Shown: positions 9,173 through 19,301 of the stretch, in pieces
Numbering within the stretch: position 1 is the stretch's first letter
Layout: every line of letters starts with the position of its first letter
The notes under the pieces: model-generated
Database searches by the model: none
The model's input: only the letters and a program-made list of their open reading frames with translations
Told to the model about the DNA's origin: nothing
Translations under genes and position numbers: made by a program
DNA from: Actinomycetes bacterium
GTDB taxonomy: Bacteria > Actinomycetota > Coriobacteriia > Anaerosomatales > Anaerosomataceae
Direction: 5' to 3'
DNA: 44,911 nt
Assembly (NCBI GenBank): GCA_021373175.1
Contig: JAJFTE010000011.1
Span: forward strand, 1 to 44,911

Positions 9173-9206
9173 CCCCGGTACGTAGTGTGCACCTGAGGGG
9201 ATGAGC

Positions 9207-10163
9207 ATGACCGAGGGTCGCCGCATAGGGCTGCCGCGCTCGCTGCTCTATCACACGTTCCATTCACTGTGGACGACGTTCTTCGAGGAACTCGGGTGGC
9301 GCACCGTGACGAGTCCGCCGACGAACCGTCGCGTGCTTGAGCGAGGCGTAGCGCTCGCGGTCGATGAATCCTGTCTGCCGATGAAGGTCTTTCTCGGCCA
9401 CGTCGAGTCGCTACGCGGCCACTGCGACGCGGTCTTCGTGCCGCGGATCGAGTCGCTCAACGAGACCGAACACGTTTGTGCGAAGTTCATGGGCGCGTAC
9501 GACATCGTCCGCAACACCATGCCAGACCTGCCGCTCGTCACCTACGATGTCGACGCCGCGAACGGGGTACAGGAACGGGCGAGCATGCTGGCGCTCGCGC
9601 GCGAGCTTGGCGCGGGGCCGCTCGTGGCGCGCCGCGCGTACGCACGAGCGAAGGCGGCGCAGCGGGCGCACGACCTCGAGATGGTGCGGCTGCAAGAGTC
9701 GCTGCTCGACGTGGGGTCGGCAGAGCGGGATCACACCCGCATCCTCGTGGTCGGCCACTCGTATAACCTCGCTGACGAGCTCATCGGCAAACCGATCCTG
9801 GAATTCTTGCGCTCGCTTGATGTGGAGGTCGTCACCTCCGCCGAGGTCGACAAGCCGCAGGCGCGCGCCCTGTCCAAGCGCCTCTCGCCGAGCATCAAGT
9901 GGACGTACAACAAGGAGCTTCTCGGCGCGGTCGAGCTCTACCGCGAGGTCGTCGACGGCATCATCCTCGTCGTGACGTTCCCTTGTGGTCCCGACTCGCT
10001 CATGGCCGAACTCTGCCAGCGGCGCGTCGAGGACGTGCCGGTCGCGACGCTCATCATTGATGAACTGCAGGCCGAGGCGGGCATGCGCACGCGACTTGAG
10101 AGCTTCGTGGACATCATCGAGGCGAAGCGGCATGCGGCGCATAAAGCGGAGGTGGAAGCATGA
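9207..10163 (+). CDS. Acyl-CoA dehydratase activase-related protein (DUF2229/HgdB-like component)
   Basis: 318 residues from ATG 9207, chosen over ATG 9201 because GAGGGG ends directly at 9200. The conserved cysteines of the family are visible in DESCLPMKVFLGH, EHVCAKFMG and TFPCGPDSL; these are likely Fe-S ligands. The protein belongs with the 2-hydroxyacyl-CoA dehydratase/benzoyl-CoA reductase superfamily, in which an ATP-driven activase sends low-potential electrons to a partner. In many bacteria this domain is fused into a single very large protein with the HgdB and activase parts; here all three are separate, overlapping genes. The actual substrate is unknown. Confidence 0.75.
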   Translation: MTEGRRIGLPRSLLYHTFHSLWTTFFEELGWRTVTSPPTNRRVLERGVALAVDESCLPMKVFLGHVESLRGHCDAVFVPRIESLNETEHVCAKFMGAYDIVRNTMPDLPLVTYDVDAANGVQERASMLALARELGAGPLVARRAYARAKAAQRAHDLEMVRLQESLLDVGSAERDHTRILVVGHSYNLADELIGKPILEFLRSLDVEVVTSAEVDKPQARALSKRLSPSIKWTYNKELLGAVELYREVVDGIILVVTFPCGPDSLMAELCQRRVEDVPVATLIIDELQAEAGMRTRLESFVDIIEAKRHAAHKAEVEA

Positions 10164-11239
10164 GCCGCCGACGCGTGACGTTCCCACATATGGGCGAGTA
10201 CTGGATTGCGTTCGAGACGCTCGTGGAGCTTCTCGGCGCGCAAGCAGTCGTCCCGCCGAGGATGACGCGTCACACCCTGGAGGCTGGCGCGCATGTCAGC
10301 CCCGAGTTCGTGTGCGTGCCGTTCAAGTACAACATGGGCAACTTTCTGGAAGCGCTTGAGGGTGGCATCGATGTCATCGTGCAAGCCGGCGGCGGGTGCC
10401 GCTTCGGCTACTACGGCGAAGTGCAAGAAGCGATCCTTCGCGACATGGGATACGACTTCGATCTCGTGAATCTCGTGGAAACCACGAACCTTCCGATGCT
10501 CGTCCGAGAGCTCCGGCGCATCCAGCCGGGCGCGTCGTATCCGCGCGCCGTGAAGGCGTTCTTGATAGCGTACCGGCAGGCGCAGGCCATCGAGGCGGTC
10601 GAGGACTTCGTGCGCAAGAACGTCGGCTTTGCGGTCGACCGCGGCGCGATTGACCGCGTCACCGCACGCTTTCTGCGCGAGCTCCGAGGCGCGCGCACGC
10701 TACGCGCGGTGCGCGACCTGCGGTCGACGACGCTGGCCGCGCTTGGCGCCATCCCGCTCGCAAAGCCCGAGAACCCGCTGCGGGTGGGCGTGGTGGGCGA
10801 GCTCTACGTGCTCATGGAGCCGTTCGCGAACCACAACATCGAGCGCCGACTCGCTGAGAGCGGCGTTGAGGTGCACCGCTTCGTCACGCTCACCTCGCTC
10901 ATCGAGCACGGCCTCGCCGGGCGCACGTTCGTACGCAAGACGATCGCCGCGGCAGGCCCGTGGCTGGAGTTTCATCTCGGCGCAGACGCGACCGAGAGCG
11001 TCGCGAAGACCTGGGAACTCATGAACGAGGGCTTCGATGGCATGGTGCACGTGAAGCCGTTCGGCTGCATGCCTGAGGTGAGCGCGATGTCGGTGCTCCA
11101 GCGTATATCGCGCGAGTACACGTTCCCTATCATGTTCATGAGCTACGACGCGCAGACCGCCGAGGCCGGCGTCGACACGCGCGTCGAGGCGTTCTGTGAC
11201 ATGCTCCAGATGCGGAGAAGGCGACAGAGCGGTGCGTAA
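10160..11239 (+). CDS. 2-hydroxyacyl-CoA dehydratase (HgdB/D)-like component
   Basis: 359 residues, starting with an ATGA overlap of the previous stop. Fe-S ligand cysteines appear in FVCVPFKYNMGN, QAGGGCRFGYYGE and HVKPFGCMPEVSAM, the pattern of HgdB/HgdC-type double-domain reductases. It probably forms a complex with the preceding component and receives electrons from the activase encoded next. No enoyl-CoA or amino-acid fermentation genes lie nearby, so a role in classical hydroxyglutaryl-CoA dehydration is not supported by context; related stand-alone sets include the double-cubane cluster proteins that reduce small molecules. Confidence 0.8.
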   Translation: MSRRRVTFPHMGEYWIAFETLVELLGAQAVVPPRMTRHTLEAGAHVSPEFVCVPFKYNMGNFLEALEGGIDVIVQAGGGCRFGYYGEVQEAILRDMGYDFDLVNLVETTNLPMLVRELRRIQPGASYPRAVKAFLIAYRQAQAIEAVEDFVRKNVGFAVDRGAIDRVTARFLRELRGARTLRAVRDLRSTTLAALGAIPLAKPENPLRVGVVGELYVLMEPFANHNIERRLAESGVEVHRFVTLTSLIEHGLAGRTFVRKTIAAAGPWLEFHLGADATESVAKTWELMNEGFDGMVHVKPFGCMPEVSAMSVLQRISREYTFPIMFMSYDAQTAEAGVDTRVEAFCDMLQMRRRRQSGA

Positions 11240-12215
11240 GGGCTATCTCGGGGTCGACATCGGCTCGATCTCCACGAAGGCCGTAGTGATCGCCGAGGAC
11301 CATACGATCCTTGCGAGTGAGTACCTCTGGACCGAGGGCAATCCCATCGCCGCGGTCAAGCGGGTGCTCGCCGCATTGGAGCCGCAGCTGGCGGGCGCCG
11401 ATGTCGAGGTCGTTGCGGTGGGCACGACGGGGTCAGCGCGTGAGCTGATCGGCTCGGTCCTGGGCGCGCAGGTCGTGAAGAACGAGATCACTGCGCACGC
11501 GATGGGAACGCTCTCGCTTCACGCTGACGTGCGCACGATCTTTGAGATCGGCGGGCAGGACTCCAAGATCATCGTGCTGCGCGATGGCGTCCCGGTCGAC
11601 TACGCGATGAACACGCTCTGCGCCGCGGGCACGGGCTCCTTCCTGTCGTCGCAATCACGACGGCTCGGCATCCCGGTCGAGGAGTTCGGTGATTACGCGC
11701 TGCGCTCCACGCGTCCCACGAGGATCGCGGGCCGCTGTACCGTCTTTGCCGAGTCGGATCTCGTGCATAAGGCGCAGATCGGCTATGCGATCGAGGACAT
11801 CGTGGCGGGGCTTTGTGACGCGATCGTGAACAACTACCTCAACAACGTCGGCAAGGGCAAGGAGATTGAGGCACCCGTCGTCTTCCAGGGCGGCGTGAGC
11901 AAGAATGTCGGCGTGGTCGAGGCGTTCAAGCGCATCACAGGCCACGATGTGATCGTCGATGACTGCGGGCATCTGATGGGTGCCCTGGGAATCGCGCTTC
12001 TCGCACAGAACACCGGTGCCGAGGAGCGCTTCGACTTCGGCGTTCGCGACCTCACGTTCGAGACGATGGGCGACGAGTGCGGCGGCTGCCCGAACAACTG
12101 CGAGGTCGTGTTCGTCCTGCGCGACGGCGAGTTCATCGACGGCTGGGGCAATCGCTGCGCGACCGGTATCGAGCGCGTGCGCCGCGCCGCCGAAGGTGCG
12201 CCCACAGTTGGCTGA
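11232..12215 (+). CDS. Acyl-CoA dehydratase activase (HgdC/BadF family ASKHA ATPase)
   Basis: 327 residues from GTG 11232, overlapping the previous stop by 8 bp. ASKHA ATPase motifs are GVDIGSISTKAV (phosphate 1), EIGGQDSKII (phosphate 2) and a later FQGGVSKN. The two cysteines that hold the dimer-bridging 4Fe-4S cluster in this family are in NTLCAAGTGSF and AGRCTVFAESDLVHKAQ. An extra Cys-rich C-terminus (DECGGCPNNCEVV ... GNRC) extends beyond the minimal activase and could bind another cluster. The protein would reduce the two upstream components with ATP hydrolysis. Confidence 0.88.
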   Translation: MRKGYLGVDIGSISTKAVVIAEDHTILASEYLWTEGNPIAAVKRVLAALEPQLAGADVEVVAVGTTGSARELIGSVLGAQVVKNEITAHAMGTLSLHADVRTIFEIGGQDSKIIVLRDGVPVDYAMNTLCAAGTGSFLSSQSRRLGIPVEEFGDYALRSTRPTRIAGRCTVFAESDLVHKAQIGYAIEDIVAGLCDAIVNNYLNNVGKGKEIEAPVVFQGGVSKNVGVVEAFKRITGHDVIVDDCGHLMGALGIALLAQNTGAEERFDFGVRDLTFETMGDECGGCPNNCEVVFVLRDGEFIDGWGNRCATGIERVRRAAEGAPTVG

Positions 12216-12270: not shown

Positions 12271-12295
12271 CTATGTGTGCCCGAGGAGGCATGAC

Positions 12296-12619
12296 ATGAG
12301 CGTTACGCAGGTCCGTCCTTTGACCGCCGAGCAAGTGGGCGCCGCCTTCAAGGCGCTCGCCTCCGAGCAGCGTCGTTCGATTCTCCGGATGCTCGCGACC
12401 TGTCCGCTTGAGCCCGGGGCGCCGTGCGGGACGACAGGCGAGGTCTGCGCCTGCAAGATTTCCGAGCGGCTCAACCTGGCGCCTTCTACGGTCTCGCATC
12501 ACATGGGGATGCTGCGCGCGGCGGGGCTTGTCTCGGCACGAAAAGAAGGCACCTGGGTGCACTACAGGCTCAAGCGCGACGTCATTGAGCAGGTGGCGTC
12601 CGAGCTTCTGGGCTTCTGA
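12296..12619 (+). CDS. arsR: ArsR-family metalloid-responsive repressor
   Basis: 107 residues from ATG 12296 with GAGGAGGC upstream; an ATG at 12291 is out of frame. Winged-helix ArsR fold: FKALASEQRRSILRML, then a Cys-rich loop (CPLEPGAPC ... EVCACKISERL), the recognition helix APSTVSHHMGML and wing VSARKEGTWVHYRL. The CxC in EVCACKI occupies the position of the ELCVCDL As(III) site of classical ArsR, and two extra cysteines are close by. It leads a long same-strand run of metalloid and thiol genes and converges, at the far end, with acr3. Confidence 0.9.
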   Translation: MSVTQVRPLTAEQVGAAFKALASEQRRSILRMLATCPLEPGAPCGTTGEVCACKISERLNLAPSTVSHHMGMLRAAGLVSARKEGTWVHYRLKRDVIEQVASELLGF

Positions 12620-12703: not shown

Positions 12704-12946
12704 ATGATCATCAAGATCCTGGGTTCGGGATGCGCGAACTGCCAGAAGCTCGAGAAGCGAGCCCGCGAGGCGGCCAAGAAGGCGGGCATTGACGCGGAGA
12801 TCGTGAAGGTCCAGGACTACGTCGACATCATGGGCTACGGCGTCATGTCCACACCGGGGCTCGTCGTCGATGAGGCAGTGAAGGTCTCCGGCCGCGTCCC
12901 GTCAGTGGAGGAGATCGCTACAATCCTGCGCGCAAGCAACAGCTAA
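12704..12946 (+). CDS. Small thioredoxin-like protein (redox-active disulfide protein 2 type)
   Basis: 80 residues, ATG 12704 after GGAGAGGAAGG. Thioredoxin fold with the active-site GCANC near the N-terminus (C10 and C13) and the cis-Pro region MSTPGLVVD. Members of this family commonly sit next to ArsP-type permeases. It could deliver thiols or reduce a metalloid substrate; this is inferred from context. Confidence 0.88.
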   Translation: MIIKILGSGCANCQKLEKRAREAAKKAGIDAEIVKVQDYVDIMGYGVMSTPGLVVDEAVKVSGRVPSVEEIATILRASNS

Positions 12947-12973: not shown

Positions 12974-13942
12974 ATGGACCCGTTCTACCCGCTGCAACTG
13001 CTTGCCGACTGGCTCACCTTCGATCTCATCGGACTCGCTCCGACGAGCAAGGCCGGCCTGGCGGTGGACTTCTTCCTCTTCGACGTCCCGAAGGTCCTCA
13101 TCCTGCTCGCCGTCGTCATCTTCTTCGTGGCCATCATCCGGTCGTTCTTCCCGCCCGAGAAGACCCGCAAGATGTTGTCGCACTCGCGCTTGTACGCAGG
13201 CAACGTGGCGGCCGCCCTTCTGGGCATCGTCACGCCGTTTTGTTCCTGCTCGGCGGTGCCGCTGTTCATCGGCTTCGTCGAGAGCGGCGTCCCGCTCGGG
13301 GTGACGTTCTCGTTCTTGGTGGCAAGCCCGATGATCAACGAAGTCGCGATCATCCTGCTCTTCGGACTGTTCGGCTGGAAGATCACCGCGCTCTATATCG
13401 TGTCGGGGCTCTTGATCGCGATCACGAGCGGCATCATCATCGGGAAGCTGGGTCTGGAGAGCTGGGTCGAGGAGTACGTCTACCAGATCCGCATGGGCGA
13501 CGCCGGCGAGCTGCCGGAGCAGACGTGGGCCGAGAAGCTCCGCTACGCGCGCGGCTACGTGGGCGAGATCGTCGGTAAGGTATGGCCGTACGTGATCGTT
13601 GGCATCGGCATCGGCGCGGTCATGCACGGCTACATCCCGGATGACTTCCTCGTGAAGTACGCCGGACCGGGCAACCCGTTCGCGGTGCCGATCGCGGTCC
13701 TTATCGGCGTGCCGCTGTACAGCAACGCCGCCGGCGTCATCCCGCTCGTGAGCGTGCTCACCGAGAAGGGCATGGCCATGGGCACCGTGCTCGCCTTCAT
13801 GATGGCCGTTGTCGGGCTGTCCCTGCCCGAGGCGATCATCCTGCGCAAGGTGCTCAAGCCCAAGCTCATCGCGGTGTACTTTGGCGTGAACGCCGTCGGG
13901 ATCATAGCGATCGGCTACCTGTTCAACGCGGTGCTGCACTAG
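12974..13942 (+). CDS. arsP: ArsP-type permease
   Basis: 322 residues with about eight to ten membrane helices. It carries the family's Cys motif (GIVTPFCSCSAVPLFIG) in the first half and the mirrored VPLYSNAAGVIPL in the second, typical of the PF03773 permease family that includes the organoarsenical exporter ArsP. GGAGTG lies before the ATG. It stands 27 bp after the small thioredoxin gene. The substrate could be methylated or organic arsenic, or another metal; the symbol is given because of the ArsR/Acr3 context. Confidence 0.8.
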   Translation: MDPFYPLQLLADWLTFDLIGLAPTSKAGLAVDFFLFDVPKVLILLAVVIFFVAIIRSFFPPEKTRKMLSHSRLYAGNVAAALLGIVTPFCSCSAVPLFIGFVESGVPLGVTFSFLVASPMINEVAIILLFGLFGWKITALYIVSGLLIAITSGIIIGKLGLESWVEEYVYQIRMGDAGELPEQTWAEKLRYARGYVGEIVGKVWPYVIVGIGIGAVMHGYIPDDFLVKYAGPGNPFAVPIAVLIGVPLYSNAAGVIPLVSVLTEKGMAMGTVLAFMMAVVGLSLPEAIILRKVLKPKLIAVYFGVNAVGIIAIGYLFNAVLH

Positions 13943-14374: not shown

Positions 14375-15296
14375 GGCGCATGCTCACACGCACACCGCGC
14401 CCGAGACACTCGGCGCGAAACTGCTTGCTGGCGTGGTCATCAATCTGTTCATCGTCGCGATTCAGGTTGTTGGCGGCTTGCTCTCCAACAGCCTCGGTCT
14501 GCTCTCAGATGCCGCCCACAACATGAGCGACGTGGTGTCGCTGCTTCTAAGCTACGGGGCCAACCGGATCGGAAAGCAGCCGCCGACACCGCAGCGCACG
14601 TTCGCCTTTCGTCGGGCCGAGGTGCTCGTCGCCTTCGTGAACGCCGGCGGTCTAATCGCCGTCGCCATCTTCATCGCCTACGAGGGAATCGGACGTCTTC
14701 TGCACCCTGTCGAGGTGGGAGGTATTCCGGTCATGCTGATCGCCGGCCTCGGCATGGTCGCCAACGCCGGCTCCGCCTGGATGCTGAGGGGGCACGATGA
14801 CCTGAACGCGCGCAGTGCCTTCCTGCATCTCATGGCCGACGCGGTCACCTCGCTTGGCGTCGTTGTCGGGGGCGCACTTGTCTGGGCGTTCCACATCAAT
14901 GCCGCGGACTCGATCGTGTCGATAGCGCTCGCGGGATGGATGGTCAAAGAAGCGTGGAGCATCCTGAGGGAGAGCGCGAACATCCTGCTTGAAGGCGCTC
15001 CCGATGCTATCGACTTTTGGGAAGTGACCGAAGCCATCATGGCCGAGGAAGGCGTGCTCGATGTACACGAGCTCCACGTATGGGCCATCTCGTCCACTGA
15101 ATTCGCGCTCTCGGCGCACATCGAGGTTGACGACGAGCGGCTTTCGGACCTTGCCGTGGTGGTGCGCCGGGTGAAACAGATGCTGCAGAGCCGGTTTGCC
15201 ATCGCGCATCCCACACTAGAGGTTGAGTGCGCGACCGGAGGCTGTTCCCAGGGCCTGTGCGCGGCGCCCATCGCGCGTGATGGGGACCGCGCATGA
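14361..15296 (+). CDS. Cation diffusion facilitator metal efflux transporter
   Basis: 311 residues from ATG 14361. CzcD/ZitB-type exporter that trades divalent metal (Zn, Cd, Co) for protons. His-rich start (EAHAHTHT), then the HxxxD/DxxxD-type metal sites in LLSDAAHNMSDVV and ARSAFLHLMADAVTSLGV, six membrane helices, and a C-terminal cytoplasmic domain (VLDVHELHVWAIS ... LSAHIEVDD). The tail carries a Cys-containing stretch (ECATGGCSQGLC) that may bind metal. Confidence 0.92.
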   Translation: MAMPEAHAHTHTAPETLGAKLLAGVVINLFIVAIQVVGGLLSNSLGLLSDAAHNMSDVVSLLLSYGANRIGKQPPTPQRTFAFRRAEVLVAFVNAGGLIAVAIFIAYEGIGRLLHPVEVGGIPVMLIAGLGMVANAGSAWMLRGHDDLNARSAFLHLMADAVTSLGVVVGGALVWAFHINAADSIVSIALAGWMVKEAWSILRESANILLEGAPDAIDFWEVTEAIMAEEGVLDVHELHVWAISSTEFALSAHIEVDDERLSDLAVVVRRVKQMLQSRFAIAHPTLEVECATGGCSQGLCAAPIARDGDRA

Positions 15297-15775
15297 CCGT
15301 CACCGATAGTGCGATCCTAGGGGTGGCCGGGGCGCTTCTCGTCGTGTCCGGCTTCCTAAACCGCCAGAAGACGGTCAAGGCCGTGAAGATCGGCCGCAAG
15401 CAGTTCGGCAACACGCTGGTGTTCTTCGTGGCCATCTTCGCGGCGATCGGACTTCTTGAAGCGCTCGTTACGCCCGCGCAGATCCAGGCGGTGCTTGGCT
15501 CCGGTCGCGGGATCTTCGCGCCGCTCGTGGCGGCGCTCATCGGCGGGCTTGCGGCCGGTCCGCCTGCGGCAGTGTATCCGCTCGGCAAGTACCTGTTGGC
15601 GCAGCATGCCAGCACGGCGGCCGTAGGCACGCTGCTCATTGCATGGGTGGCCGTCGGCACGATCTCGCTTCCTGCCGAGGTACGTTTCTTCGGCGCGCGG
15701 TTCGCGTTCACGCGGTGGGGTGCGACGCTCGTGCTCTCGATCGTCGCCGGTATCGTGATGGGGTGGCTCCTGTGA
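15293..15775 (+). CDS. Permease half A (ArsP_1-like)
   Basis: 160 residues, four to five membrane helices, starting 4 bp before the previous stop. Contains LLEALVTPAQIQAVLG and a Gly-rich LIGGLAAGPPAAVYPLGKYLL motif resembling one repeat of the PF03773 permeases. It lacks the Cys pair seen in the full-length ArsP of this operon. It joins the next gene by a GTGA overlap, so the two halves are probably made together and form a heterodimer. Confidence 0.75.
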   Translation: MTVTDSAILGVAGALLVVSGFLNRQKTVKAVKIGRKQFGNTLVFFVAIFAAIGLLEALVTPAQIQAVLGSGRGIFAPLVAALIGGLAAGPPAAVYPLGKYLLAQHASTAAVGTLLIAWVAVGTISLPAEVRFFGARFAFTRWGATLVLSIVAGIVMGWLL

Positions 15776-16317
15776 GACGCCTCGAGAAGTGGCTCGCGAA
15801 GAACTGGCTGGTGGTTCCGGTGGGCCTCGTCTACGCGTGGCTCGCCGTGACGCGTCCCGCGACCGCGGCGCGCGCCCTCAAGCTGGCGGCAACGACCTTC
15901 ATCGACACGCTTCCCACGCTCATCGCCGTCTTCGTGCTCGTCGGATTGCTCGCCGTCTGGGTCGAGCAGCGGTTCGTGGTCAAGCACCTCGGCGAGGGGA
16001 GCGGTCTTAAAGGAATCGCGATCGGGGCCGGGCTCGGGACGGTCCTTCACGGACCGCTCGTCGGCGTCTTCCCGCTCCTCGAGGGCCTGTTGAGGAAGGG
16101 CGCGCGTCCCGCGGTAGCGATCGCGATCGTCTCGACGTGGGCCATCAAGCTGCCGATGATCCCGCTTGAGCTGCAGCTCTTCGGCTGGAAGTTCACCATT
16201 GTGCGCGAGGGACTGCTCTTCGCCTCGGCGTTCGTGCTCGCGCCACTCATCGAGCTGGCGATCGGCAAGCACTGGATCGAGCGGTTCCGCGAACCGGCCG
16301 AGGAGGGGGCGCTATGA
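15772..16317 (+). CDS. Permease half B (ArsP_1-like)
   Basis: 181 residues from GTG 15772 inside the stop of half A. Membrane segments begin at WLVVPVGLVYAWLAV and include the repeat motif GLGTVLHGPLVGVFPLLEGLL, mirroring the other half. The two genes together have the size of one PF03773 permease. Substrate unknown; a metal or metalloid is likely from context. Ends in an ATGA overlap with the next gene. Confidence 0.75.
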   Translation: MRRLEKWLAKNWLVVPVGLVYAWLAVTRPATAARALKLAATTFIDTLPTLIAVFVLVGLLAVWVEQRFVVKHLGEGSGLKGIAIGAGLGTVLHGPLVGVFPLLEGLLRKGARPAVAIAIVSTWAIKLPMIPLELQLFGWKFTIVREGLLFASAFVLAPLIELAIGKHWIERFREPAEEGAL

Positions 16318-16793
16318 CAGACGAACCAGCGCGCTTGAGCGGTCGGGCCCGCGTCCTTATCGGGGTGGCGATTCTCGTTGTCTTCGCCGTCATTCTCGGC
16401 GTCAAGTTGGCCGCACCTCAGACTCCTGCCGGGGCTCCGGCCGAGGCCGCGGTGAAGCCGTCCCAGGTGCGCGACGATCCGGTGGCTGCGTACGATGCGG
16501 CCCTCTCGGCGGGTAAGCCCGTCTACGTCCTCTTCCACTCCCTCACGTGCGACCCGTGCATCGAGATATCGGCGGTGGCGGACCAGGTCATTCCCGAGTA
16601 CACGGACACAGTGACCTTCGTGAACGCCATCACCGATGACCCGGCGGGCCAGCAGCTGGCGGCCCGGTTCTCCTTTGAGTACATCCCGACTTCGTTCTTC
16701 GTGCTCCCGGATGGCACCGTCGCCGACTCCTACACCGGCGTCCTTGCTGCCGAGGAGATGCGCGCCCGCCTCGACGCGCTGGTGGCCAAGTGA
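16314..16793 (+). CDS. Membrane-anchored thioredoxin-like protein
   Basis: 159 residues. A single N-terminal helix (VLIGVAILVVFAVILGVKLA) anchors an extracytoplasmic thioredoxin domain with the active site LTCDPC and cis-Pro region EYIPTSFFVL. It overlaps the previous gene (ATGA) and the following ccdA-like gene (GTGA), so electrons passed by CcdA through the membrane would reduce this protein, which could in turn reduce a thiol or metalloid outside. Confidence 0.88.
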   Translation: MTDEPARLSGRARVLIGVAILVVFAVILGVKLAAPQTPAGAPAEAAVKPSQVRDDPVAAYDAALSAGKPVYVLFHSLTCDPCIEISAVADQVIPEYTDTVTFVNAITDDPAGQQLAARFSFEYIPTSFFVLPDGTVADSYTGVLAAEEMRARLDALVAK

Positions 16794-17494
16794 TCTCGAT
16801 CGCGACACTCGCCTCGGAGTTGGGCACCGGTGTGATCGCGGGTCCTGCGGCGTACGGGGTCGCTCTGCTCGGCGGTCTGGTCGCGGGATTCGGTCCGTGC
16901 ACCCTGCCGATGCTGCCGGCCGTCTTCGGCTACGTCACCGGCACGGTTGCGGGAGGTGACGGCGTCGCGTGGCGCCGCGCGCTCGTGCTTTCGTCGGTCT
17001 TCGTGCTTGGCACAAGCCTGGTGTTCGCGGCTATTGGCGCTCTCGCGGGCGCGCTTGGCCGAGCAGTGCTCGTCGACGTCTGGGCGTCGTACGCGGTCGC
17101 ACTGCTGTGTCTCCTCCTCGGCCTGCACTTGATCGGTGTGATCAGCCTGCCATTCGATGCGCTCAACCGGTTCGTGCCGACGAAACGTCCGGAGCGTCGT
17201 GGAGTGCTCGGAGCGTTCGTCTTCGGCATGCTCTTCGGCCTTGTGGCGTCGCCGTGCTCAACGCCGATCCTCGCGGCGATTGCCACGATGGCGGCTGCGC
17301 GCGGTTCGGCCGTTCACGGTGCGGTGTTGCTCTTCGTGTACGGTCTCGGCAAGGGGCTTCCGCTGCTGATGCTGGGGCTGGCATCGGGCTCGCTCGCCAC
17401 AGCGCGGTGGTTGTCTCGGGCAACGTCAGCGCTTACGAAGGTTGGCGGCGTCGCCCTGCTCGGCGCGGCGGCGTATCTTGTTTGGACGGCGTAG
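16790..17494 (+). CDS. ccdA: CcdA/DsbD-type transmembrane thiol reductant carrier
   Basis: 234 residues, six membrane helices, with the paired half-site motifs GFGPCTLPMLP and VASPCSTPIL that give the two redox cysteines of CcdA. It carries reducing equivalents from cytoplasmic thioredoxin to exported thiol proteins. Placed directly after the anchored thioredoxin and before the Cys-rich and selenocysteine genes, it most likely serves this metalloid/thiol module rather than cytochrome c maturation, for which no genes are present. Confidence 0.9.
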   Translation: MISIATLASELGTGVIAGPAAYGVALLGGLVAGFGPCTLPMLPAVFGYVTGTVAGGDGVAWRRALVLSSVFVLGTSLVFAAIGALAGALGRAVLVDVWASYAVALLCLLLGLHLIGVISLPFDALNRFVPTKRPERRGVLGAFVFGMLFGLVASPCSTPILAAIATMAAARGSAVHGAVLLFVYGLGKGLPLLMLGLASGSLATARWLSRATSALTKVGGVALLGAAAYLVWTA

Positions 17495-17532: not shown

Positions 17533-17721
17533 ATGACCACGTGGGTATACCGATGCACCGAATGCGCGACGACCTTCGCGGTCGAGGTAGAGACCGGAGC
17601 CGAGGCACCCGAGACAGCGACGTGCTCGGAGTGCGCCGATGGCGTGGCGGAGCGCGCGTTCGCACTGCCCGAGCCTTCGGGCGGTTGCGGTTGCAGCTCC
17701 GGGAGCGACTGCGGCTGCTGA
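17533..17721 (+). CDS. Small zinc-ribbon protein with Cys-rich tail (FmdB-like)
   Basis: 62 residues, ATG 17533 after AAGGAGA. N-terminal zinc ribbon (YRCTECATTF ... TCSECADG), then a Gly/Cys tail SGGCGCSSGSDCGC that could bind metal or metalloid. The FmdB-type family is of unknown function and often sits beside redox genes. It ends at TGA; the next gene has its own ribosome-binding site 41 bp later and happens to be in the same frame. Confidence 0.8.
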   Translation: MTTWVYRCTECATTFAVEVETGAEAPETATCSECADGVAERAFALPEPSGGCGCSSGSDCGC

Positions 17722-17772
17722 ACTTTGGCACGATGCGCGATGGGATCTGGACGCAAACGGCAAGGAGACACC

Positions 17773-18120
17773 ATGGATGAGATCGTCGTATACGTCGTAG
17801 ACGAACCCTGCGGTTGAGGCGGCGATAGCTGCGGCGACGACATGGCACTGCTTCTCGGCACAGAGCCCGAGAGCACGTCATGCGCGGTCGTGCTGCAGGA
17901 TCCTCTCCAGGTCCTGGAGAGTGCGCTGGAGTCCGCGAACGAGCGACCCGTCACCATCATCTCGACCGACATCTACGGCGTGGCCGGCGATGCGCGTCAC
18001 ACGGCCCTCGACGCGCTCATCGAAGGCGCCGTGCTCCCCTATGTGATCGTGGACGGCGCGCTCGTGAGCTCCGGCGGAATCGACGTCGCGGCGACTGTGG
18101 CGCGCGTGCGAGCGCTGTAA
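17773..18120 (+). CDS. Putative selenoprotein, thioredoxin-fold (YuzD/DUF1462-like), Sec at codon 15
   Basis: Reading from ATG 17773, which has an ideal AAGGAG six bases upstream, the frame gives EIVVYVVDEPCG, then TGA at 17815-17817, then GGDSCGDDMALLLG and continues open to TAA 18120. With TGA read as selenocysteine the protein is 115 residues with a CGUGG...C motif at the usual thioredoxin active-site position and the cis-Pro strand VLPYVIVDGALV near the end. This is the layout of YuzD-type disulfide oxidoreductases. Without readthrough, the downstream ATG 17842 has no ribosome-binding site and the fold would lose its first strand and active site. A weak stem (AGC-TGC with GCA-ct-GCT) places a GG-starting loop about 16 nt after the TGA, compatible with a bacterial SECIS. 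Sec genes are not in the window. Confidence 0.7.
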
Positions 18121-18131
18121 GCGGAGCGGCG

Positions 18132-19301
18132 TCAGGCCTCGTGGTCTGTGCGTCCGCCGCTGTCGGCTAGCAGGTCACTCGCCAGACAGGTGTCCTCGAT
18201 CCGCGCGACAGCATCGTCCGCCTCGGCCAGCATCTCGGCGCCGGTCGGCGAGAGTTCGTCGGGAAAGTAGCGGCGCCGGAAGGCGAGCGCCACGTTCACC
18301 AGGCCGATGAGCACCGGCACCTCCACGAGTGGCCCGATGACGGCCGCGAACGCTGCGCCGCTGTTGATGCCGAACACCGCGATACATACGGCGATAGCGA
18401 GTTCGAAGTTGTTGGATGCGGCTGTGAACGACAGCGTCGTCGTCTTCGCGTACTTCAGGCCGATGGCTTTGGCCACGAAGAACGTGAGGAAAAACATGAT
18501 TGCGAAGTAGAAGAGCATCGGCACGGCGACCCGCACGACGTCGAGCGGAATCTGCAGGATGAGATCGCCCTTGAGCGAGAACATGGTGAAGATCGTGAAC
18601 AGCAGCGCTACCAGCGTGACCGGCCCCACGCGGGGCACGAATACCTCGTCGTACCAGCAGGCACCTTTGAGCTTCCGCAAGCCGAACCGCGACACCAAGC
18701 CGGCGAGGAACGGTATGCCGAGATAGACCCCGACTGTGCCGGCGATCTGGCCGATGGAGACATCGATGACGGCACCCTTAAGCCCGATTGCGGGCAGCAG
18801 CACCGTGATGAACGCCCATGCGTATACGCTGAAGAAGAGCACTTGCATCACGCTGTTGATGGCGACGAGTCCGGCGGCGAACTCGGTGTCGCCCTTCGCC
18901 AGCCCGTTCCAGACGATCACCATCGCGATGCACGGCGAGATGCCGATGATGATGAGCCCTACCATGTACTCGGGATAGCCGCGCATGAACGTGACGGCGA
19001 GGGTGAACATCACGAGCGGCGCGACGATCCAGTTCATGAGCATCGCGAGACCAAGGGCCTTCTTGTCGCGCATGGCCTTCGGGAGCTCCTCGTAGTGCAC
19101 CTTGGCGAGCACCGGGTACATCATGGCGATGAGCCCGATCGCGATGGGGATGTTCGTCGTTCCAACCGCGAACTTGCCGATGAACGCCGGAATGGCCGGC
19201 AGGAACGCGCCTGCGCCCACGCCGACGCCCATCGCGAGGAAGATCCATAGCGTGAGGTACCGATCGAGAAACGAGAGCCGCTTGCTCACGGAGTCGGGCA
19301 T
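18132..19301 (-). CDS. acr3: Arsenite efflux transporter, Acr3 type
   Basis: 389 residues, ten membrane helices, antiparallel and 11 bp from the end of the ArsR-led operon. Acr3 signatures include [12 protein letters not shown], the [13 protein letters not shown] segment with the essential Cys of this family, and [15 protein letters not shown]. It exports As(OH)2O- using membrane potential. AAGGAG lies upstream of the ATG on the minus strand. An extra 40-residue cytoplasmic tail follows the last helix. Its convergent placement suggests a separate promoter near 19310-19340. Confidence 0.95.

Follow-up and report, generated by a model that had tools for sequence, protein, structure and literature searches.

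The window, by which we mean the whole stretch of 44,911 nucleotides that was analysed, is contig C122 of a source genome of 2.15 Mb that is 99% complete. It was found to contain a small gene with an in-frame TGA at codon 15, lying among arsenic and thiol genes (Table 1). An unannotated selenoprotein had been proposed here in the first-pass annotation, and re-reading of the sequence confirmed the ribosome-binding site, the start and the in-frame TGA 17815, as well as the open frame beyond it, which was observed to run uninterrupted for 100 codons up to the TAA at 18118-18120. The sequence around codon 15 reads MDEIVVYVVDEPCG-U-GGDSCGDD, with the TGA inside a C-G-U-G-G motif. No signal peptide was visible in the 115-residue protein.

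The ATG 17842, preceded by gatagctgcggcgacgac-ATG, was found to be without a ribosome-binding site, as had been claimed, and its Met is replaced by Ile in each of the three closest relatives (sister species), which therefore lack this internal start. The sequence AAGGAGACAMC precedes the ATG of the gene in all three sister species, the ribosome-binding site and the start thus being kept. In three pairwise comparisons with the sister species, the codon differences 5' of the TGA were 15 synonymous and 2 non-synonymous, with 2, 0 and 15 substitutions at codon positions 1, 2 and 3, respectively. The synonymous pattern, together with the kept ribosome-binding site and start, indicates that the stretches before and after the TGA are translated in one frame.

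Table 1. Positions of the genes and features of the locus within the window
Feature	Position	Strand	Evidence or remark
ArsR-family regulator	12278..12619	+	PF01022 1.2e-10
ArsE/MTH895-type thioredoxin	12704..12946	+	TIGR00412 108 bits, above cut-off
ArsP_1/SaoE-like permease	12974..13942	+	PF03773 1.6e-76; NF040736 134 bits, below cut-off
ArsP_1-type permease, split over two ORFs that overlap	15293..16317	+	PF03773 matched by each half, below cut-off for the first
Membrane-anchored thioredoxin	16314..16793	+	PF00085 5.9e-8; hydrophobic N-terminus in the sequence
CcdA/DsbD-type electron transporter	16790..17494	+	PF02683 1.9e-30
FmdB-type zinc ribbon protein, small, just upstream	17533..17721	+	PF09723 2.8e-8, TIGR02605 1.5e-5, neither reaching cut-off
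Ribosome-binding site AAGGAG, 5 bases 5' of ATG 17773	17762..17767	+	
Selenoprotein gene, 115 aa, Sec15, TAA end	17773..18120	+	Conserved in 30/69 genomes of the order
Cys13 codon of the C-G-U motif	17809..17811	+	Cys in 27/29 members
TGA, codon 15, read as Sec15 (site 1)	17815..17817	+	TGA column in 29/29 members compared
Hairpin GCGGC-GATA-GCTGC right past the TGA	17819..17832	+	Paired in four of four species of the genus
Cys20 codon, possibly for a third ligand or a resolving Cys	17830..17832	+	Cys 5-7 residues past Sec15 in most members
Cys37 codon (site 2); most relatives have TGA/Sec	17881..17883	+	21 TGA, 6 Cys, 1 Trp, 1 Glu (29 members)
Hairpin CTCTCCA-GGTCC-TGGAGAG past the Cys37 codon	17903..17921	+	Place of the site-2 SECIS in two-Sec relatives
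Acr3 arsenite efflux transporter, convergent	18132..19301	-	TIGR00832 415 bits, above cut-off

The setting described at first pass, with CcdA, thioredoxins, ArsR and Acr3, was found as stated except that the Acr3 gene is convergent on the opposite strand and is therefore a neighbour outside the transcript of the selenoprotein gene. The halves of the split permease (15293-15775 and 15643-16317) resemble half-size pairs in relatives (L093, L104, L114, L115), and because such pairs recur the split appears to be normal and not an error. Genes of the CoA-enzyme-activase type (DUF2229, BcrAD_BadFG) occupy 9201-12215, upstream of the arsenic cluster. Reading of the upstream FmdB-like gene through a TGA into the selenoprotein was considered and dropped; sister species use other stops there.

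The link with arsenic genes was observed at 27 of 28 loci of the family, where one or more genes of arsenic or thiol chemistry (ArsR, ArsE, ArsP, Trx, CcdA, Acr3 or DUF2703) flank the member or are fused to it. In two genomes (G621, G745) a distant relative, with Sec in one and Cys in the other, has arsA on one side and acr3 on the other, the clusters also including arsR and arsD. No ArsA match was found near the window gene; the distant relatives L164 and L167 do adjoin arsA. DUF2703 is a thioredoxin-like domain that occurs in ars clusters (PMC3091736, PMC6514093), is assigned together with ArsD to the thioredoxin-like clan (PMC3091736), and is represented in Rhodococcus by an arsenate-induced gene (PMC6514093). 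It was found fused in frame at the N-terminus of many relatives; the window protein lacks it. Just downstream of DUF2703-fused members, a large B12-dependent aminomutase (Lys-AminoMut_A, OAM_dimer, B12-binding) was seen repeatedly (L096, L098, L099, L100, L101, L103), the call being made on L096 and on 7 of the 60 neighbour proteins scanned.

In-frame TGA codons of the family

Homologues were searched for in 398 genomes of the class, and a profile search covered 69 genomes of the order. About 30 species were found to keep the TGA at site 1, many with a second TGA, and in the profile search of the order, which involved no selection for TGA, the codon was present in every full-length match. When 29 members were compared codon by codon over 100 codons, all 50 in-frame stops were TGA and stood in two columns only; the shifted frames of the same members contain TAA and TAG too. 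The 29 members were chosen by their site-1 TGA, and the full count at that site is partly by construction, but the site-2 counts (Table 1) and the lack of TAA and TAG are not products of this selection. As judged from the aligned sequences, conservation of the in-frame TGA, which recurs at the same family column, is far more than chance would give. Homologues with a plain stop and no conservation upstream of it would have refuted the proposal; the upstream part was conserved instead.

The window protein is a one-Sec form, its genus having Cys37 at site 2. The Cys two residues before Sec is conserved (Table 1), as is one near the C-terminus (26 of 29; Ser99 in the window protein). The expectation that homologues would carry Cys in place of Sec was met at site 2 and in distant relatives (e.g., L149, L142), but not at site 1 within the family, where no such exchange was found.

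The source genome was found to have another member of the family, in which both TGAs are present (CGUGS...GSTUVMP; L062; L109; G000:C137:46393-46554, minus strand). This copy lacks the middle ~45 residues, lies beside ArsR, ArsP and CcdA genes, and is probably decaying. In the long members L033, L034, L043, L046 and L047 the C-termini end with Cys-Cys immediately before a TGA that may be either the stop or a third Sec, and a Cys paralogue turned up in a genome search. A search with the motif pattern gave no match in viral contigs, and a query with the fused form gave only one weak match in a plasmid collection, covering the DUF2703 part.

Decoding of the TGA codon

The source genome was found to contain all of selA (586 bits), selB (378 bits), selD (371 bits) and tRNA-Sec (68 bits, above the family cut-off; tRNA-SeC(tca) by ARAGORN, anticodon TCA), the absence of which would have refuted the selenoprotein. 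Its selD itself has an in-frame TGA, read ...SSKSGUAAKWG, followed by a hairpin with its loop ~16-20 nt downstream, which served as a positive control.

The strict rules for a SECIS element were a loop of 3-14 nt with G in loop positions 1-2, a loop start 16-37 nt from the UGA and a stem of at least 5. Under these rules a hairpin of -5 kcal/mol or lower followed 22 of 22 site-2 TGAs vs. 34% of 987 random in-gene positions, and at -7 kcal/mol the proportions were 91% and 20%, respectively. The site-2 hairpins differ between two lineages, with loops at +21 and +29, and GU is present in nearly all loops (GGUCU in L024). The L024 hairpin is retained after a Cys codon in L028, which indicates that it owes something to the protein sequence and to codon use. 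No enrichment of hairpins was found at site 1 under the strict rules; several lineages have GGU-loop hairpins near +28. For the excess of structure against synonymous recodings, beyond that of control stretches of the same genes, p was 4e-5 (site 2) and 0.001 (site 1), though these p values are optimistic because the sequences are related.

In the window gene itself, the bSECIS search suggested for the region after TGA 17815 yielded no convincing element, either by the strict rules or by the recoding test, and Rfam gave no SECIS match. The hairpin at 17819-17832, in which base changes in L023 preserve pairing, is a possible but atypical SECIS, its apical loop lying closer to the UGA than the standard model allows. 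Atypical bacterial SECIS elements exist (PMC12013277).

Both selA and tRNA-Sec were undetected in five family-positive genomes (G047, G051, G073, G105, G145), selB and selD being outside this check. Four of the five are 93-98% complete. Assembly gaps that lose clustered sel genes would explain the missing machinery, but this does not sit easily with G047, which is 98% complete in about 10 contigs. Both were missing from 5 of 30 family-positive vs. 7 of 39 family-negative genomes of the order; within the order, presence of the family is not tied to the Sec machinery (selA, tRNA-Sec).

The lack of a clear SECIS in the window gene and of detectable Sec machinery in some relatives' genomes would suit a real stop at TGA 17815, with a 14-codon leader or decay product before it and a protein that starts at ATG 17842 or is dead. 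Such a stop is hardly tenable against the replacement of the internal Met in sister species, the synonymous pattern upstream of the TGA, and the use of TGA, never TAA or TAG, at both sites. Even less credible is the insertion of a different amino acid (Trp or Cys) at the TGA through reassignment or suppression, which the Trp at site 2 of one member would fit but against which stand the full Sec machinery including tRNA-Sec(TCA), the termination of neighbouring genes in TGA, the Cys exchange at site 2 in six members and the confinement of TGA to two columns. The machinery, the family-wide TGA, the coding pattern upstream and the Sec/Cys exchange at site 2 all support the selenoprotein of the first-pass annotation, and we regard decoding of TGA 17815 as Sec as nearly certain.

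Likeness to ArsD and possible function

The window protein gave no match to any Pfam or NCBIfam model at E up to 1, including PF00085, PF13192 and the selenoprotein models, and the relatives tested gave none above cut-off save DUF2703 in fused members. Going by the models or motifs listed for them, we recognised the window family in none of the 119 families that the 2026 inventory of prokaryotic selenoproteins contains (PMC13188914); the new selenoprotein families of Haft and colleagues were compared only through NCBIfam and the table of the 2026 review. As far as these catalogues (Pfam, NCBIfam and the 2026 inventory) could be checked, this is a new, uncatalogued selenoprotein family of the thioredoxin-like kind found in metalloid operons, with an unusual two-Sec layout.

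With the family profile we reached distant relatives from further classes of the phylum (97%, E 2.4e-11, C-terminal 78 columns covered), which have Sec, Cys or Leu at the site equivalent to the Sec site, and the distant relatives led to ArsD (95%, E 4.7e-8, spanning the Cys motif). One distant-relative profile (A7) also matched the DUF1462 structure 1xg8 (E 9.7e-6) and thioredoxins. Direct comparison of the family with ArsD was weak (26% probability, C-terminal half only), that with ArsE-like thioredoxins being lower still at 1%, and single-sequence structure prediction of the window protein failed (pLDDT 44). For the thioredoxin fold claimed at first pass there is only this chain of profiles; no thioredoxin model matched directly and the likeness is closer to ArsD, and the fold is thus inferred from profile comparison through distant relatives. 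On this basis the protein would best be called thioredoxin-like and ArsD-like, not ArsD.

ArsD (PF06953, NF033727), of thioredoxin fold, is comparable as a small protein encoded in ars operons whose N-terminus holds a Cys cluster, CCSTGVCG as compared with CGUGGDSC in the window protein, where the five residues from Sec to Cys match the ArsD spacing; a C-terminal half with LPxxxVDGxxxxxG is also shared. In contrast to ArsD, the window family has Sec in the motif and a second Sec/Cys site 22-23 residues on, and the window protein matched neither PF06953 nor NF033727 at E up to 1. Its C-G-U-G-G-x-x-C resembles the CCxxxxC cluster, which it lacks, in spacing alone. DUF2703 (PF10865), found fused to many relatives and in ars clusters, is a separate domain. 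DUF1462 (PF07315; 1xg8), of thioredoxin fold, was matched by distant relatives with E 0.0013, below cut-off, and not directly by the window family; we know of no Sec in DUF1462.

Sec.1 (CxU), Sec.2 of PF13192, SaoT and the HUIPC selenoprotein (PMC13188914) are also small and thioredoxin-like, Sec.1 sharing the C-x-U motif. The selenocysteine-assisted organometal (SAO) system likewise has selenoproteins with a metalloid theme, and the SaoE-related permease of the window operon recalls it (Table 1); no other SAO component was identified among the window genes scanned.

Several distant relatives from other classes of the phylum (L123, L125-L131, L133, L150, L151) were found to have an in-frame TGA, with the motifs GGUGP, PSGUSSSG and RSGUGPR. 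Those tested gave no match to a selenoprotein model, and from their sequences they look like further uncatalogued Sec families. Small proteins related by profile only (L135, L136, L137, L138, L145, L147) also have an in-frame TGA, in the motifs GGUGPS, GGUAPP, SGUGPSW, GGGUGTVSW or GFGUGS. The TGA seen in the G091 ArsD (L120) was interpreted as the C-terminal stop of that protein.

For the locus as a whole, we lean towards an uncatalogued, Sec-decoded, ArsD-like family that binds trivalent arsenic and hands it on. UGA 17815 would be decoded by the genome's own SelA, SelB, SelD and tRNA-Sec to give a cytoplasmic selenoprotein of 115 residues, in which Sec15, Cys13, Cys20 and Cys37 are inferred to form a cluster of soft ligands. 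The cluster would bind trivalent arsenic or else an organic arsenical, such as a methylated one; this substrate is an inference, as is the subsequent transfer step, in which the arsenic would be passed to the efflux pumps ArsP and Acr3 encoded next to the gene. The neighbouring thioredoxins would keep the selenoprotein reduced. Among possible functions, we favour a Sec/Cys cluster that binds trivalent arsenicals and transfers them, with the balance for and against this function about level. The coexistence of canonical ArsD with the distant relative in G621 and G745 counts against such a chaperone, and no arsenic phenotype is known for the family.

The same selenoprotein could instead be a redox enzyme, in which Sec15 would form a selenenylsulfide with Cys13 or Cys37 and be fed by thioredoxins and CcdA, with arsenate, oxidised arsenicals or protein disulfides as inferred substrates. 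CcdA, the membrane thioredoxin and the ArsE-like thioredoxin flank the gene, the DUF2703 fused in many members is a proposed thiol/disulfide protein, and a redox role is assumed for most of the prokaryotic selenoproteins known so far (PMC13188914). The motif, however, is C-x-U and not the usual CxxU or UxxC, the two Sec sites and several Cys resemble a ligand cluster more, and the profile leads more strongly to ArsD than to ArsE-like thioredoxins; a redox enzyme is therefore rather unlikely, though it cannot be set aside.

Selenium and arsenic chemistry interact, and to our knowledge Sec has been proposed as a metalloid ligand for only a few proteins. With the arsenic-binding function preferred here, it may be suggested, tentatively and at somewhat less than even confidence, that the ancestral form of the family carried two Sec and served, by means of selenolates, as a chaperone or sensor for arsenic, the selenium equivalent of ArsD, and that lineages such as the genus of the window turned the second Sec into Cys. 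The annotation models tested miss the family because its TGA codons are read as stops. In this family Sec is connected with arsenic efflux across a bacterial order, and the natural one-Sec, two-Sec and site-2 Cys versions of the family allow direct comparison.
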